Positions 17,071 to 49,685 of a stretch of DNA of 64,000 nucleotides are shown here, one piece after another. This DNA comes from Gammaproteobacteria bacterium. Its GTDB lineage: Bacteria; Pseudomonadota; Gammaproteobacteria; 21-64-14. Within the stretch, counting starts at the first letter, position 1. Every line of letters starts with the position of its first letter. Below the pieces are notes generated by a model. It saw only the letters and a program-made list of their open reading frames with translations, was not told where the DNA came from and ran no database searches. The translations under genes and the position numbers were made by a program. The stretch is taken from contig JALUXX010000053.1 in NCBI GenBank assembly GCA_027013145.1, forward strand, positions 62,001-126,000, read 5' to 3'.

Positions 17071-17124
17071 ACCGCCAGCCTCGCGTTTCCACCCGGGGTC
17101 GCGCCGTCCCCCGGAGCCTACACG

Positions 17125-17147
17125 AAAAAGGGGCCGTCGGCCCCTTT
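17125..17147 (-). terminator. Rho-independent terminator after pnp
   Basis: On the minus strand a 9-bp stem, AAAGGGGCC / GGCCCCTTT with loop GAC, spans 17147-17127 and runs into five T residues (17129-17125). It lies 29 bp past the pnp stop codon and separates the rimP-pnp operon from lptFG. Confidence 0.8.
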
Positions 17148-17175
17148 CCGCAGCGTCCGGCCCGGCCGCGACCGC

Positions 17176-21030: not shown

Positions 21031-23535
21031 TCAGACCGTGCGTGCCACCTCGACGCGCTGATAGACCTCGATCTGGTCGCCCACCTTCACGTCATTGTAA
21101 TTGCGCACGCCGATACCGCACTCCATCCCCGCGCGCACCTCGCCCACGTCGTCCTTGTACCGGCGCAGCGATTCGAGTTCGCCCTCGAACACCACGACGT
21201 TGTCGCGCAGGACCCGGATCGGATTGTTGCGCTTGACCACACCCTCGATGACCATGCAGCCGGCGACCGCGCCGATCTTCGAGGAGCGGAAGACCTCCCG
21301 GACCTCGGCCAGGCCGACGATCTCCTCCTTGGTCTCCGGGGCGAGCATTCCGCTCAGCGCCTGTCGGACTTCGTCGATGACGTTGTAGATCACGCTGTAG
21401 TAGCGCAGATCGACGCCCGACTCCGAGACCAGCTTGCGCGCGGTCGCATCGGCGCGCACGTTGAAGCCGATGAGCACGGCGTTGGAGGCAACCGCCAGAT
21501 TGACGTCCGACTCGGTGATGCCGCCCACACCGCTGGCCACGATCTTCACCTTGACCTCGTCGGTCGAGAGCTTGGTCAGGGCGTCCTGCAACGCCTCCGC
21601 ACTGCCCTGCACGTCGGCCTTGACGACGAGATTGAGGGTGCTGACTGCGCCCTCCTCCATCTGCGAGAGCACGTCCTCGAGCTTCGCGCCCTGTTGGCGC
21701 GCGAGCTTGACGTCGCGGAACTTGCCCTGGCGGTACAGGGCGATTTCGCGCGCCTTGCGCTCGTCGGGGACCACCACGACCTCATCACCGGCGTTGGGCA
21801 GGCCCGACAGACCCAGCACCACGACGGGAATGGACGGGGTCGCGCGCTCGACCGCAGCGCCCGATTCGTCGAAAAGCGCGCGTACGCGGCCATGTTCCTT
21901 GCCCGAGAGGATCACGTCACCCTTATTCAACACGCCGCTCTGAACCAGGACCGTGGCCACGGGCCCGCGGCCCTTGTCGAGGCTCGATTCCAGGACCACC
22001 CCGGTGGCCGGCCCCTCGGCCACCGCCTTCAGCTCCATGACCTCCGCCTGCAGCAGAATCGCCTCGAGCAGTTCATCGACTCCGGCGCCGGTTTTCGCCG
22101 AGACCTCGACGAACATCGTGTCGCCGCCCCAGGCCTCGGGGATGACTTCGTGCTGCGAAAGCTCCTGCTTGACCCGGTCCGGGTCCGCCTCCGGCTTGTC
22201 GATCTTGTTGATCGCGACCACCAGCGGCACTTCGGCCGCCTTCGCGTGCTGAATGGCCTCGATCGTCTGCGGCATCACGCCGTCGTCCGCCGCCACCACC
22301 AGCACGACGATATCGGTCACCTTCGCGCCGCGGGCGCGCATGGCCGTGAAGGCGGCATGGCCCGGGGTATCCACGAAGGAGATGCCGCCTTTCGGCGTCT
22401 TCACGTGATAGGCGCCGATGTGCTGGGTGATCCCGCCGGCCTCGCCCGCCGCCACCTTCGAACGGCGCATGTAGTCGAGCAGCGAGGTCTTGCCGTGGTC
22501 GACATGACCCATGATCGTCACCACCGGCGGTCGCGGGACCGGCTCGGCGTCGCTGTGGCGCTCGGGGACCAGTTCCGCCTCGAGATCGCTGTCCTTCAGC
22601 AGCTTGGCCTTGTGGCCCAGCTCCTCGACCACCAGCGCGGCCGTGTCCTGGTCGATGACCTGATTGATCGTGGCCATCATCCCCATCTTCATCATCGCCT
22701 TGATGAGCTCCGCCGCCTTCACCGCCATCTTCTGCGCGAGTTCGCTGACGGTGATGGTCTCGGGGATGGTGACCTCGCGCACGATCGGCGCGGTCGGGCG
22801 CTCGAAGGCGTGCTGGGAGCTGCCCGTGACCGTCACCTGACGCTGGCGCGTGCGTTTGCGCCGCCGCCCGCTCTTGTCCACCGCGACGTGCAGTTCGCGC
22901 CGCCCGTAGCGGGTCTCGCGGTCGTCCTTCGAGGGTTTGCGCTTGGCGGCGCGCTCGGGCGCCGGTGGCGGCGGTGGTGCCGCCTGGGCCGCCGCCTGCG
23001 CCTGCTCGGCCGCGAGCCGCGCCTGGACCTCGGCCTCGGCGCGTGCGCGCTCCTCGGCCGCGGCGCGCTCCGCCTCCTCCTCGCGCCGCTTGGCCTCCGC
23101 CGCCGCCTCCTCGCGCGCGCGCTCCTCGGCCGCGATCCGCTCCTGCTCCTGGCGCGCCTTCTCTGCCGCCTCGTCCTCGCGGCGCTTGGCCTCCTCGGCC
23201 TCTTCCTTGAGAATCTCGCTGCGCTTGACGTAGGTGCGCTTCTGGCGGACCTCGACGTTGACCACACTCTTCGGGGCGCCGCGCCCCTGGCCGCTGCCGA
23301 AACGCAGCTCGCTCTGGACCTTGCGCTTGAGCGTGACCTTGCGCGGCTCGACGGCAACCGGCGCGGACTTGCCGTGCGTCTCGCGCAGGAACGTCAGCAG
23401 GCGCAGCTTGTCCTTGTCGTTGATCGTCGCCTCCGCGTCGCTCACCGGCAGACCGGCCTCGCCGAGCTGATCCAGCAGGCGCTCGACGGGGATCCCGACC
23501 ACCTCCGCGAACTGCTTAACGGTTACTTCGGGCAT
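21031..23535 (-). CDS. infB: Translation initiation factor IF-2
   Basis: IF-2 is the GTPase that recruits fMet-tRNA to the ribosome. The protein is 834 residues. An IF2 N-terminal domain ([20 protein letters not shown]) is followed by a long charged, Ala/Glu/Arg-rich linker (about 110-200). The GTPase domain follows with G1 [13 protein letters not shown]3 [10 protein letters not shown]4 NKIDKPEAD and a G5-like SAKTGAG; the C-terminal domains II-IV end in [20 protein letters not shown] at 23535 is chosen because GAGG precedes it and homology begins there. nusA ends 14 bp upstream. Confidence 0.98.
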
Positions 23536-23549
23536 ATCGATCCTCGGTC

Positions 23550-25055
23550 TCAATGCTGGGACGACTGCTCATTCTCGAACCACGGCGCACGCGCCGTCAT
23601 GATGAGCTGCGCGGCGCGCTCCTCGCCGAGATCGGCGATATCCTTCAGCTCATCGACGGACTGCTCGGCGAGATCCTCCATGGTCACGACGCCGCCGCTG
23701 GCCAGGCGATAGGCGAGTTCGCGGTCCATACCCTCCATCTCCAGGAGATCCGGTGCAGGCTCGACCTCCCCGAGCTTCTCCTCGTCCGCGATCGCCTTGA
23801 TCAGCAGCACGTCGCGCGCCCGGTTGCGCAGCTCCTCGACGATGTCCTCGTCGAACTCCTCAATCCCGAGCAGCTCGCCGGTCGGGACGTAGGCGACCTC
23901 CTCGATGCTGGAGAAGCCCTCCTGCACCAGGATCACCGCGATCTCCTCGTCGACGTCGAGCTGCTCCATGAACATCTTCTGCAGCGTCTGCGCCTCCGCC
24001 TCGCTCTTCTCCTCGGCCTGGGCCTCGCTCATGACGTTGAGCTCCCAGCCGGTGAGCTGGCTCGCGAGCCGCACATTCTGACCACCGCGGCCGATGCTCT
24101 GCGCGAGCTTCTCCTCGGAGACGGCGATGTCCATGCTGTGCGCCTCCTCGTCGACCACAATGGAGACGACTTCGGCCGGCGACATCGCGTTGATCACGAA
24201 CTGGGCCGGGTTCTCGTTCCACAGAATGATATCGATACGCTCCCCCGTCAGCTCGTTGGACACCGTCTGCACGCGCGAGCCGCGCATGCCCACGCATGCC
24301 CCGACCGGATCGATGCGCGGATCGTTCGAACGCACGGCGATCTTCGCGCGCAGACCCGGGTCGCGCGCCGCGGCCATGATGTCGATGAGGCCCTGCCCGA
24401 CCTCGGGGACCTCCAGCTTGAACAGCTCCACGAGCAGCTCCGGACGCGTGCGGCTGACGAAGAGCTGCGGCCCGCGCGGTTCGGGGTGGACGTCATAGAG
24501 GTAACCGCGGATGCGGTCACCCGGGCGCAGCGCCTCGCGCGGGATCATCTCCTCGCGTGCGATCAGAGCCTCGGCATTGCCGCCGAGATCGAGTACCACG
24601 CCCCCGCGCTCGGAGCGTTTGACGATGCCGCTGACCAACTCGCCGACGCGGTCCTGGTAGGCCTCCACGACCTGCGCGCGTTCCGCCTCGCGCACCTTCT
24701 GCACGATGACCTGCTTGGCGGTCTGCGCCGCGATGCGCCCGAAGGCGATCGACTCGAGGGGTTCCTCGATGAAACCGCCGACCTCGATCGCCGGATCGCG
24801 CTCGCGCGCCTGTGTCAGGGTGAGCTGATGCTCGGGGAACTCGATTTCGGCGTCGTCGTCCAGCACCTCCCAGCGCCGGAACGTGCTGTACTCGCCGCTC
24901 TCACGGTCGATCGCGACGCGCACCTCGATCTCACCCCCGTAGCGCTTCTTGGTCGCGGACGCGAGCGCGGCCTCGATGGCATCGAAGATGATCTCCTTGT
25001 CGACGCCCTTCTCATTGGAAACGGCGTCCACGACCAGCAATACGTCTTTGTTCAT
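23550..25055 (-). CDS. nusA: NusA, transcription elongation/termination factor
   Basis: NusA modulates pausing, intrinsic termination and antitermination of RNA polymerase. It has 501 residues. An N-terminal RNAP-binding domain starts [20 protein letters not shown]. An S1 domain follows ([20 protein letters not shown]), then two KH domains ([38 protein letters not shown]) and two C-terminal acidic helix-hairpin repeats (about 350-495), as in gamma/betaproteobacteria. The start at 25055 matches the family. It is 25 bp downstream of rimP, and its own leader contains terminator-like hairpins, a plausible autoregulatory target. Confidence 0.98.
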
Positions 25056-25080
25056 TCCCACGACCTCCGACTCCCGCCGG

Positions 25081-25542
25081 CTACCACTCCGGAACCACGT
25101 GCGCCTTCGCCACGCGCTCCAGGGGGATCTCCACCTCTGCACCGTCCTCGTCCAGCACGACCCGTCCCTCACCCACCGTCACCAGCCGGCCGGTGAACTT
25201 CCGCCGCCCCTCGAGCGGCCCGTCAAGCCGGATGCGCACGCGGCTGCCCACCTGACGCGCCATCTGTTCGGCGTTGAACAGCGGCCGGTCGGCCCCCGGC
25301 GAGGACACTTCCAGGACATAGGGCCCCGGCAAGGGCTCCTCGACGTCCAGTACCGCGCTGAACTGCTCGCTTACCCGCTGACAGTCCTCCAGCGTGATGC
25401 CGTCGCCACCGCCGCGGTCGATATACGCGCGCAGCACCCGTCCGCGTCCCTCCGCGTGCAGGTCGATCCCGAGCAGCTCATAACCCATCGCCCGGGCGAC
25501 GGGCCCCAACAGGGCCTCGACTCCAACCGCTTCCCGCCTCAT
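25081..25542 (-). CDS. rimP: RimP, ribosome maturation factor
   Basis: RimP assists late assembly of the 30S subunit. The product is 153 residues with the expected two-domain pattern: N-terminal [28 protein letters not shown], then [19 protein letters not shown], and a C-terminal SH3-like barrel ([17 protein letters not shown]). ATG at 25542 is preferred over a TTG 15 bp upstream. It is the first gene of the nus operon. Confidence 0.95.
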
Positions 25543-25629
25543 GCCGCCGGTCCCCAACCGTTTCCGAAAAGGTCCGGGACAGACCCTTCCAACCCGTCGT
25601 ACACGGCACGGGGCCGGCCCGGCTCCGCC

Positions 25630-25655
25630 GAATCAGACACTTCCGTGTCCGGTTC
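25630..25655. repeat. Short imperfect palindrome, copy 1 of a dispersed hairpin element
   Basis: A 26-bp element with 11-nt arms around TTCC (GGAA on the minus strand): GAATCAGACAC, TTCC, GTGTCCGGTTC. A copy sharing 19 of 26 bases, with the differences mostly transitions, is at 42566-42591. Both sit in intergenic DNA. It is REP-like in size and form. Confidence 0.5.
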
Positions 25656-25718
25656 ACGTGGGGGGCGCGATCACCCCGCGTGCACAGGCCGATTTCCACC
25701 GCCCGTTAAAACAAAAAA

Positions 25719-25733
25719 TGGGCACGAGGCCCA
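25719..25733 (-). terminator. Second terminator-like hairpin in the rimP leader
   Basis: On the minus strand TGGGC / GCCCA forms a 5-bp stem with a 5-nt loop (25733-25719), followed directly by six T, a G and four more T. The stem is short, but the U-tract is strong. It lies about 175 nt upstream of the rimP ATG. Confidence 0.5.
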
Positions 25734-25800
25734 CTCCCAACCCACTTGGCAGTCGACACCACCACCCGCGACGCCGCACGCGGCGCCGGGAGCCGGGCGC

Positions 25801-25822
25801 AAAAAAACCCCGCAGCGGGGCC
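25801..25822 (-). terminator. First intrinsic terminator in the rimP leader
   Basis: On the minus strand CCCCG-CTG-CGGGG (25820-25808) is followed by seven T residues (25807-25801), a good intrinsic terminator. The 5' arm GCCCCGC is also fully complementary to GCGGGGC near the start of the transcript (about 25907-25901), so termination and an alternative pairing are mutually exclusive. Confidence 0.7.
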
Positions 25823-25913
25823 GGACACCCTCAACACCGAAATCTGACCCCGGGCCGGGGTGCCCCCGGATCACCTCCGGGGTCCGCAGCGGCACCGCAA
25901 GCCCCGCTTCGGT
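25801..25913 (-). ncRNA. Candidate structured leader RNA or small RNA
   Basis: Transcription from the promoter at 25920-25948 would start near 25913 and stop at the terminator at 25801, a product of about 113 nt. By eye it folds with a closing helix ACCGAA/TTCGGT and internal hairpins GCGG..CCGC, CCCCGGA-GGTGA-TCCGGGG and ACCCCGG..CCGGGGT, then the terminator. No 4.5S RNA, 6S RNA, tmRNA or tRNA signature is present. It may be an attenuated leader of the nus operon rather than an independent RNA. Confidence 0.45.
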
Positions 25914-25919
25914 GGCCGG

Positions 25920-25948
25920 ATTTTACACGAGCCTCGGGTGCGGTTCAA
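25920..25948 (-). promoter_or_regulatory. Strong sigma70-like promoter of the rimP-nusA-infB operon
   Basis: TTGAAC (25948-25943) and TAAAAT (25925-25920) on the minus strand are separated by exactly 17 bp, the best sigma70 match I saw in the window. Confidence 0.7.
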
Positions 25949-26131
25949 CGCGCACCGCCCGCCGCACACCCGTAAATATAGCATGGTTTCCGGTGACCGT
26001 CCGTACCCGCGCCCGTCGCGGTTTCTGTGACGCGGGTCCACGCCAGAGCCGCGCCGCGGCGCCATGATGGTGCCGTCCGCCCCCCGCCGGTTCGCGGGGT
26101 CGCAGCGCCAACGTCATGAGGTCCGCCACGG

Positions 26132-28612
26132 GTGCAGACACCGAATCGAGCCGCACATCCGCTCCCGCCCGCGCCGGCCATCCTGTTGCTCGCCGGCCTT
26201 ACGCTGCTCTTTGCCGGATGCGTCCCCGGCGGCGGATCGCCCGGCGCCACCGCCCCCACCCAGGTGGTCGCGAGCGTCGCCCCCGTGCAGCTCTCCGGCA
26301 GCGTCGGCGACGGCCCCGTCCAGAACGCCACCGTCACGGTCACCGATTCCGCCGGGCACGAGCGGGTCCGGGACCGGAGCGACCTCAGCGCCAAATACAC
26401 CGTCACCGTGCCCGCCGGCACCCCGTTCCCCGTGCGCATCGCGGCCGCCGGCGGTACCGATATCGTCTCCGGTTCGACCCCCGATTTCACCCTCCTCTCG
26501 GCGGCCCTGTCGCCGGACCAGCGCACGGCGAACCTCACGCCCCTGACGACCCTGATCGTGCGCACCGCCGAGACCCTGCCCGGCGGTCTGACCGCCGCCA
26601 ACGTCGATGCCGCACGCCGCGACGTGATGGGGACGCTGTCCTTCGGCCTGGATCCGGCGCAGGTACCGGACCCCATCACCACCCCGATCACCGCGGCCAA
26701 CGTCGCCGGGGTCCTGCGCGCCAATGAGGCCCTGGCGGAGCTGATCCGGCGCACGCGCGCGACCCTGGTCAGCGCCGGCGCGACGATCACCGACGACGGC
26801 ATCGTCGATGCACTCGCTGCCGACGTCAGCGACGGCGCCCTCGACGGGCGCGGGGCGCCGGGCACCGATCCGCGGGTCTCCGCCATCGCGCATGTGGTCG
26901 CGGCGCAGGTGCTCACCGAGGCGCTCGCGGGACGCCTCCAGGTCGGCGGCGCCGACGCCACCGTCGCCCTCGACACTGCCCTGCATGTGACCGCCCCGGG
27001 CGTCCCGGCCGGAGCGACGGTGGCCGCGGTCCCGATCACCGGCGGCGCACTCGCCGAGGCCCGGCGGGCGATCCGCGCCGCGCGCGCGGTCTCCTCCGCG
27101 CCCGTACTGGGGACCCTGCTCGGCGCCGTCTCCGCACTGGCGCCCGGCGCCACGCCCCAGGCATTCGCCGCCGTGCTCCCCGCCGGGGCCGACTCCGAGC
27201 TGGCGCGCACAAGGACCCTGGTGGGAACCGCCACCGCGGCCACGCTCGCCTCGATCAACACCGTCGCCAACGAACCGCTCGGCCTGCCGGCGCCGGTGAT
27301 CTCCTTCGCGGCCAGCCCCACGTCGGTCCCGTCGGGCGGGTCGGCGACGCTCACCTGGAGCGTCACCGGGGCCACCTCCTGCACCGCCTCCGGAGGCTGG
27401 GGCGGGGCGCGCGCGACCGCGGGCACCGCGAGTACGGGTGCACTCACGGCCGGTACCGGCTACACCCTGAGCTGCAGCGGTCCGGGCGGGACCACGAGCG
27501 CCTCGGCCGCCGTTTCCGTCGCCGCCGCGCCGCCCGCCGCCACCGCCTTGATCGCAAGCCTGAGCGTGCTCGACACCGCCCACGCCGCGGCCTGGTCGGT
27601 ACAGCCGAACCTGGGCACCGGCGCGACCCTCTACGGCGACCGTAGCTATACGATCTCCTCGCTGCCGGCCGCCGTAGCCGGCGGCGCCTGGATCCGCACG
27701 GCCAACGACTCGCGGGTCTTCACCGGGGCGGTCGTCGCCCGGTTCACCGTCGCGCAGGCGGCGACCGTCTACGTGGCCCACCGCGACGACATCGCGCCCA
27801 AACCCGCCTGGCTGCAGGGCTGGACCGACACGGGCATGAACCTCGTCGACAGCGAGCCCAGGACCTACAGCCTCTACCGTAAGGACTTCGCGGCCGGCGC
27901 GACCGTCGATCTCGGCCCCGACGGCGGCGGGACCAGCTCCGGCATGTACACCGTGATCGTGCTGCCCACGGCGACGACCGGCGGCACGAGCCCGGCCCCC
28001 GCACCGACCCCCAGCCCCGCACCAGCTCCGACCCCGACCCCGACGCCGACCGTGGACCACATTCCCGTCGCCGTCAATGACAGCGCCACCACGCCGCTGA
28101 ACACGGCGGTCACCGTCCCGGTCCTCGCCAACGACAGCGGGCTGCAGGACGTGCCGGTGACGGTAAGCGTGATCGGCGCGCCCGCGCACGGCTCCGCTGC
28201 GGTCAACGCCGACAACACCGTCCGCTACACGCCGGCGACCGATTTCGCCGGCAGCGACAACTTCACCTACCAGGTCCGCGACGTCGACGGCGACCTCGCC
28301 ACCGCTACGGTCACGGTCGGCGTCACCTGCACCACCTGCTCGCCCAAGACCCTCACCCTGTCCTGGGATCCCAGCCCGCAGGCAATTTCGGGCTACCGCG
28401 TGTACTATGGACTCACGGCCGCCGCAGCAACGACACTCGCCCGCGATGTCACGGTGGGTGCCGCGGGTTTCGACCCGGCCGCACCGAGCACCCGGTTCAG
28501 CGCCTGGAACGGCCTGCACCTGCGCGTGGGGGACACGGTCTGCTTCCGCGTAACGGCATACAACGCGGCGGGGGAATCGGGACCCTCCACTGCCGTGTGC
28601 GGAAACCTGTGA
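26132..28612 (+). CDS. Large multidomain surface lipoprotein
   Basis: An 826-residue exported protein with lipobox LLFAGC near residue 29. A carboxypeptidase-regulatory-like or Ig-like domain follows (about 50-125), then a helical Ala-rich region (about 130-385), a bacterial Ig-like domain with a disulfide pair (PVISFAASPTSVPSGGSATL, about 390-465) and a beta domain around YVAHRDDIAPKPAWLQGW (about 470-615). A Pro/Thr linker at about 620-645, a tandem-95/cadherin-like domain (YTPATDFAGSDNFTYQVRD) and a C-terminal fibronectin-III-like domain complete it. This build suits cell-surface adhesion or glycan binding; no catalytic motif was found. The GTG start at 26132 is uncertain. It lies 1 bp before a second exported protein gene. 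Confidence 0.75.
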   Translation: MQTPNRAAHPLPPAPAILLLAGLTLLFAGCVPGGGSPGATAPTQVVASVAPVQLSGSVGDGPVQNATVTVTDSAGHERVRDRSDLSAKYTVTVPAGTPFPVRIAAAGGTDIVSGSTPDFTLLSAALSPDQRTANLTPLTTLIVRTAETLPGGLTAANVDAARRDVMGTLSFGLDPAQVPDPITTPITAANVAGVLRANEALAELIRRTRATLVSAGATITDDGIVDALAADVSDGALDGRGAPGTDPRVSAIAHVVAAQVLTEALAGRLQVGGADATVALDTALHVTAPGVPAGATVAAVPITGGALAEARRAIRAARAVSSAPVLGTLLGAVSALAPGATPQAFAAVLPAGADSELARTRTLVGTATAATLASINTVANEPLGLPAPVISFAASPTSVPSGGSATLTWSVTGATSCTASGGWGGARATAGTASTGALTAGTGYTLSCSGPGGTTSASAAVSVAAAPPAATALIASLSVLDTAHAAAWSVQPNLGTGATLYGDRSYTISSLPAAVAGGAWIRTANDSRVFTGAVVARFTVAQAATVYVAHRDDIAPKPAWLQGWTDTGMNLVDSEPRTYSLYRKDFAAGATVDLGPDGGGTSSGMYTVIVLPTATTGGTSPAPAPTPSPAPAPTPTPTPTVDHIPVAVNDSATTPLNTAVTVPVLANDSGLQDVPVTVSVIGAPAHGSAAVNADNTVRYTPATDFAGSDNFTYQVRDVDGDLATATVTVGVTCTTCSPKTLTLSWDPSPQAISGYRVYYGLTAAAATTLARDVTVGAAGFDPAAPSTRFSAWNGLHLRVGDTVCFRVTAYNAAGESGPSTAVCGNL

Positions 28613-49424: not shown

Positions 49425-49453
49425 TTGCATTCCGCCTGAACACACACTATCTT
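49425..49453 (+). promoter_or_regulatory. Candidate nrdAB promoter
   Basis: TTGCAT (49425-49430) and TATCTT (49448-49453) are separated by 17 bp. The predicted start falls at about 49460, immediately before the riboswitch, so the whole aptamer is transcribed. Confidence 0.5.
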
Positions 49454-49457
49454 GTGC

Positions 49458-49685
49458 GTCACCTCCGGTGCGATCTCAAGATCTTGGGATCTCCAAAAGG
49501 GAACCCGGTGCAACTCCGGGACTGACGCGCAGCGGTGAGGGGGAACGACGCGCACAGGGGGCCCCACGCGGGGCCCCGGGCACTGTCCCGACGGGACGGG
49601 AAGCCGTGCGCCGAGGCCCGCCGCCTCCCGAAGGGAGACGGCCCGCCCCCGAGTCCGAAGACCTGCCGGAGGCCGGCCGGGCGGG
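49458..49685 (+). promoter_or_regulatory. Cobalamin riboswitch upstream of nrdAB
   Basis: A cobalamin aptamer (adenosylcobalamin class) is recognised by the order of conserved blocks. The 5' core AAAAGGGAACCCGGTG is at about 49495-49510. CAACTCCGGGACTG follows, then GCAGCGGTGA, CACTGTCCCGACGGGACGGG with GGGAAGCC at about 49600, and finally the B12 box GAGTCCGAAGACCTGCC at 49651-49667. Insertions of GC-rich hairpins (GGGGGCCCC...GGGGCCCC) enlarge it. With cobalamin bound, expression of the downstream class Ia reductase should fall. No U-tract follows, so control is more likely translational than transcriptional. Confidence 0.9.

Follow-up and report, generated by a model that had tools for sequence, protein, structure and literature searches.

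The rimP-leader was described by Naville & Gautheret (2010) as a terminator of the form GGGc...gCCC located before rimP in the majority of leader-bearing species (PMC2965389). In several Gammaproteobacteria the leader is tandem, with a second, upstream terminator of the form CCCg...cGGG and a potential antiterminator (PMC2965389). The same study proposed a role for NusA (PMC2965389).

In the metY-rimP-nusA-infB operon of E. coli, rimP is likewise preceded by two terminators, t1 and t2. There metY comes before the terminators, and the leader region contains RNase III sites (PMC6511841). E. coli NusA was reported to regulate its own operon, and mutants in which NusA termination is reduced have higher levels of the operon's transcripts (PMC6511841). 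Expression of an E. coli rimP fusion was lower, not higher, in a rho mutant, and the cause was left open (PMC7815308). In B. subtilis, which belongs to another phylum, NusA controls its own gene by stimulating termination in the operon leader (Mondal et al. 2016, as summarized in PMC12288461). Short and long transcripts arise from one start in S. agalactiae, for which the authors suggest the same feedback (PMC4448216).

Organization of the locus

The window is a 64,000 nucleotide stretch of DNA in which a rimP operon is encoded on the minus strand in the order rimP-nusA-infB-rbfA-truB-rpsO-pnp. Genes from rimP through truB were identified with family models, while rpsO and pnp were read from translated open frames. 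The first three genes are:

25081 to 25542, minus strand: rimP, first gene of the putatively controlled operon (NCBIfam RimP models, best E 8.9e-46, under the curated cut-offs)
23553 to 25061, minus strand: nusA, encoding the proposed feedback regulator (TIGR01953, E 7.9e-123, over the cut-off)
21031 to 23553, minus strand: infB (TIGR00487, E 1.1e-268)

The nusA product has a duplicated C-terminal domain, seen as two stretches that match TIGR01954 over the cut-off. On the other side of the leader is a divergent, unrelated gene (26132-28612, plus strand) with a tandem-95 repeat match and a weak large-adhesin match. A cobalamin riboswitch was identified elsewhere in the window (49449-49684, plus strand, 66.3 bits, Rfam).

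The leader elements precede rimP in the following order:

25920 to 25948, minus strand: predicted sigma-70-type promoter, TTGAAC-17-TAAAAT
25801 to 25914, minus strand: predicted short leader RNA of ~114 nt, spanning the inferred start through T1, based on fold and promoter
25900 to 25912, minus strand: 5' element CCGAAGCGGGGCU, proposed 5' strand of an antiterminator, conserved in a congener (G001) as CCGAAGCGGGGUU
25801 to 25822, minus strand: terminator T1, CCCCG...CGGGG plus U-tract (CCCg...cGGG motif), from sequence, congener and class survey
25707 to 25738, minus strand: terminator T2, GUGGGC...GCCCA UUUUUUGUUU (GGGc...gCCC motif), from covariance model and congener

The -35 box TTGAAC (25948-25943) and the -10 box TAAAAT (25925-25920) are separated by a 17 bp spacer on the minus strand. 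This is the sole promoter-like site in 25500-26200, where shuffled sequences gave a mean of 0.0. The same region contains 3 terminator-like sites, with 0.5 expected. The start of the leader RNA was placed from the position of the promoter. The resulting 114 nt are predicted to form a closed multi-branch fold of -65.0 kcal/mol (z -2.55), and 0/200 shuffles were equally stable. An earlier note on this DNA had proposed a strong promoter followed by about 113 nt of closed multi-branch structure ending in a terminator, and both proposals were borne out. A hairpin of the leader contains GGAGGTGATCC (25868-25878, minus strand), which matches the sequence usually complementary to the 3' tail of 16S rRNA and which is absent from the congener.

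T1 reads GGCCCCG-CUG-CGGGGUU followed by the U-tract, and T2 reads GGAGUGGGC-CUCGU-GCCCAUUUUUUGUUUU. The second terminator-like hairpin that the earlier note had placed about 70 nt after the first is T2, but the distance between T1 and T2 is ~62 nt. A covariance model of T2 was built from 41 sequences, leaving out the organism's own genus, and covers 32 positions. It recovered T2 at 25738-25707 with 40.5 bits (E 3.7e-8 over the window), which was the top match in the genome. The exact T2 pattern occurs once in this genome. A T2-like terminator at 17118-17149 (minus strand, 23.7 bits with the T2 model) lies directly 3' of the frame read as pnp. With the equivalent T1 model, also built without the genus, T1 was the sole match in the window and a weak one (12.9 bits, E 0.83).

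Comparison with described leaders

The window contains both terminators of the tandem rimP-leader. A GGGc...gCCC stem followed by a T-stretch (T2) lies in the 5' UTR of the rimP-nusA-infB operon, and a CCCg...cGGG terminator lies upstream at 25822-25801, its match to the T1 model being weak as given above. Tandem terminators before rimP and the motifs themselves are shared with the leader of Naville & Gautheret, and the window may also share the potential antiterminator for the upstream terminator (PMC2965389). Two features differ. T2 ends ~164 nt before the rimP ATG, while the published range is 4-130 nt with the congener inside it, and the 5' domain of the window's leader is lineage-specific and GC-rich. 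Judged from its sequence, the leader is well supported as an example of the tandem rimP-leader already published, which is conserved in Gammaproteobacteria.

The Rfam family for this leader, RF01770, did not match the window's leader at its gathering score (47 bits) or at E up to 5. Over 20 loci, the gathering score was reached by E. coli alone, whose corresponding T1 and T2, lying between metY and rimP, are recognized by RF01770. The window shares with that leader two U-tract hairpins in the same order and differs in having no tRNA gene before them. Because RF01770 misses the window's leader and, at its gathering score, the other relatives tested, we assign the leader to the rimP-leader as published rather than to the Rfam family. 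The search for known sRNA or RNA families over the leader, at Rfam gathering scores and at E up to 5, returned sub-threshold matches only. The best of them, SorX over the T2 hairpin, scored 22.1 bits where its gathering score is 46.6, and was rejected.

Conservation of the leader

One congener was found in the genome collection (G001), and the arrangement of promoter, T1 and T2 also precedes its rimP. Identity between the two is 92% over the promoter (-35 to ~+17, including the 5' element), 96% over T1 and 90% over T2. Counted over aligned positions, with many gaps, it falls to 70% upstream of the promoter, 78% in the leader interior, 64% in the T1-T2 spacer and 53% between T2 and rimP. The congener gave the only full-length DNA match to the leader, likewise in front of rimP. 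Outside the genus, similarity consisted of short matches, and those checked were not linked to rimP.

The class was surveyed using 115 rimP leaders, a set that includes the window and the congener and is biased toward the closest RimP sequences. The T1 and T2 motif classes were defined once the published description had been consulted and these leaders had been inspected initially. By these classes, T1 followed by T2 was found within 300 nt of rimP in 69/115, compared with 0/115 after shuffling. T2 alone was present in 30 and T1 alone in 11 (4 and 4 in dinucleotide-shuffled controls). T2 with or without T1 occurred in 99/115 leaders, against 4/115 when shuffled. The exact T2 pattern was then scanned over 275 genomes, giving 91 matches in 84 genomes. 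Two opposite-strand palindrome duplicates were set aside, and 67 of the 72 placeable matches are on the rimP strand and no more than 400 nt upstream of the gene. The window is the extreme of these 67 placed cases, with 172 nt from the start of the T2 match to rimP; the median is near 42 and the congener has 42. The stretch between T2 and rimP (25542-25706, minus strand) holds ~130 nt extra, and no promoter-like site was found in it.

By these sequence comparisons, the conservation of the predicted promoter, T1 and T2 and the T1-T2 order are beyond chance. The description of the region in the earlier note as an attenuator-like leader of rimP-nusA-infB is well supported. That note had the leader type right but overlooked both the prior description of the arrangement and the initiator tRNA found upstream in most relatives.

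Absence of the upstream initiator tRNA

A tRNA-Met (CAU) gene lies no more than 700 nt upstream of rimP in 69/115 leaders, often just before T1. Neither the window nor the congener has an initiator tRNA gene in front of rimP, and in the window's genome an initiator-type tRNA is located elsewhere. T1 could be the leftover terminator of a metY unit whose tRNA was lost or moved, leaving the 114-nt RNA as a non-functional or decaying remnant and T2 as the only regulatory terminator. The frequent position of T1 shortly 3' of tRNA-Met in relatives suggests as much, as do the tRNA at another locus in this genus and the interior of the 114-nt RNA, only 78% identical in the congener. Against this, the promoter with its 5' element and T1 have been retained while their flanks drifted. 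In 29/115 leaders T1 and T2 occur together without an upstream tRNA-Met, so T1 persists without the tRNA, and its loss or absence in this genus is not unique. A tRNA relic within the 114 nt was rejected, as neither a tRNA scan nor Rfam at E up to 5 gave a tRNA-like match in the leader region. We consider the remnant explanation unlikely.

A more speculative proposal, which we doubt, is that in this genus a structured 5' RNA domain replaced the initiator tRNA and grips T1 as a default antiterminator. If true, what was once the terminator of a tRNA would now act as a regulated switch that controls the nusA operon.

Possible pairing between the 5' element and T1

The 5' element CCGAAGCGGGGCU can pair with the 5' arm and part of the 3' arm of T1. 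In this pairing, termed P1, the RNA segment AGCGGGGCU would pair with the T1 segment GGCCCCGCU. The predicted minimum-energy fold uses P1 in both species, at -65.0 kcal/mol versus -62.7 kcal/mol with the T1 hairpin in the window, and at -54.3 versus -47.9 kcal/mol with T1 formed in the congener. All pairs are retained in the congener through two one-sided changes to G.U, with no compensatory double change. Shuffling gave a complement as long or longer in 42/300 cases for the window and 51/300 for the congener (14-17%). Folds that disfavour T1 as strongly or more so were obtained in 140/300 and 15/300 shuffles, respectively. P1 is possible and no more than that: it is kept in two sequences without a compensatory change, and equal complementarity arises in 14-17% of shuffles. 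The complementarity between GCGGGGC (25907-25901) and GCCCCGC (25821-25815) pointed out in the earlier note is complete and kept in the congener, but it does not exceed chance in such GC-rich sequence.

The 5' element of the congener (contig C51, minus strand), CCCCGAAGCGGGGTTT, is nearly a copy of T1, CCCCGTTGCGGGGTTTTTTT. It looks as if the T1 hairpin had been duplicated to the 5' end of the RNA.

These folds raise the tentative idea of an antitermination switch, in which P1 would be the default and a protein, a ligand or the elongation state would release it for termination. The use of P1 in both minimum-energy folds, the G.U changes that keep its pairs and the potential antiterminator that Naville & Gautheret report from several Gammaproteobacteria, also acting on the upstream terminator (PMC2965389), are consistent with a switch. 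The shuffles, and the comparison of just two sequences, argue against one. A different long-range stem, enclosing T1, gave no consistent signal of conservation among tandem leaders (mean z ~ -0.4). We regard the switch as unlikely on balance; it can be compatible with attenuation by the rimP-leader.

Small RNA and leader peptide as alternatives

A free-standing small RNA whose leaky terminator lets transcription into the operon is improbable. Its own promoter and terminator and its stable fold would suit such an RNA, and the rimP leader is among the attenuator-derived sRNAs associated with ProQ (PMC5391140). However, no known sRNA family was found at Rfam gathering scores, the one full-length match is again before rimP, and throughout the class both the location and the order of T1 and T2 go with rimP. 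Leader-peptide attenuation was rejected as highly improbable: open frames are present and a strong ribosome-binding site might be read in GGAGGTGATCC, but that site is missing from the congener, no frame yields translations that are alike over their full length in both species, and the short shared stretches fall only where the 5' element, T1 and T2 are conserved.

Discussion

The window holds a real, conserved attenuator-type leader; its kind has already been described and this instance, in an unannotated lineage, is new. Since such leaders are common and were known before, we consider the find solid but ordinary. The predicted promoter, T1 and T2 are present, conserved and fixed in position before rimP.

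The explanation that we favour, with reasonable confidence, is a rimP-leader whose serial terminators limit polymerase entry into rimP-nusA-infB under feedback from NusA. Two intrinsic terminators in series in the 5' UTR would restrict the number of RNA polymerases reaching the operon. By analogy with other species, NusA on the elongating polymerase would make it pause and terminate more often at T1 and, above all, at T2. With plenty of free NusA, most transcripts would stop as short leader RNAs; with little, polymerase would read through into the operon. Less firmly, early pairing of the 5' element with the T1 arm might block T1 and tune readthrough. NusA probably limits its own operon in this organism. 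Such feedback is plausible but not new, since it has been reported for E. coli and B. subtilis.

Several observations count against this explanation. The T1 model gave a weak match (E 0.83), RF01770 gave none, and T2 is unusually far from rimP. The lowered expression of the E. coli rimP fusion in the rho mutant also counts against it.

With this leader, an attenuator already known to be widespread is seen in a further lineage, one overlooked by the current Rfam model. A simple T2 model of 32 positions detects rimP leaders where RF01770 fails. Both terminators can occur without an upstream initiator tRNA gene.
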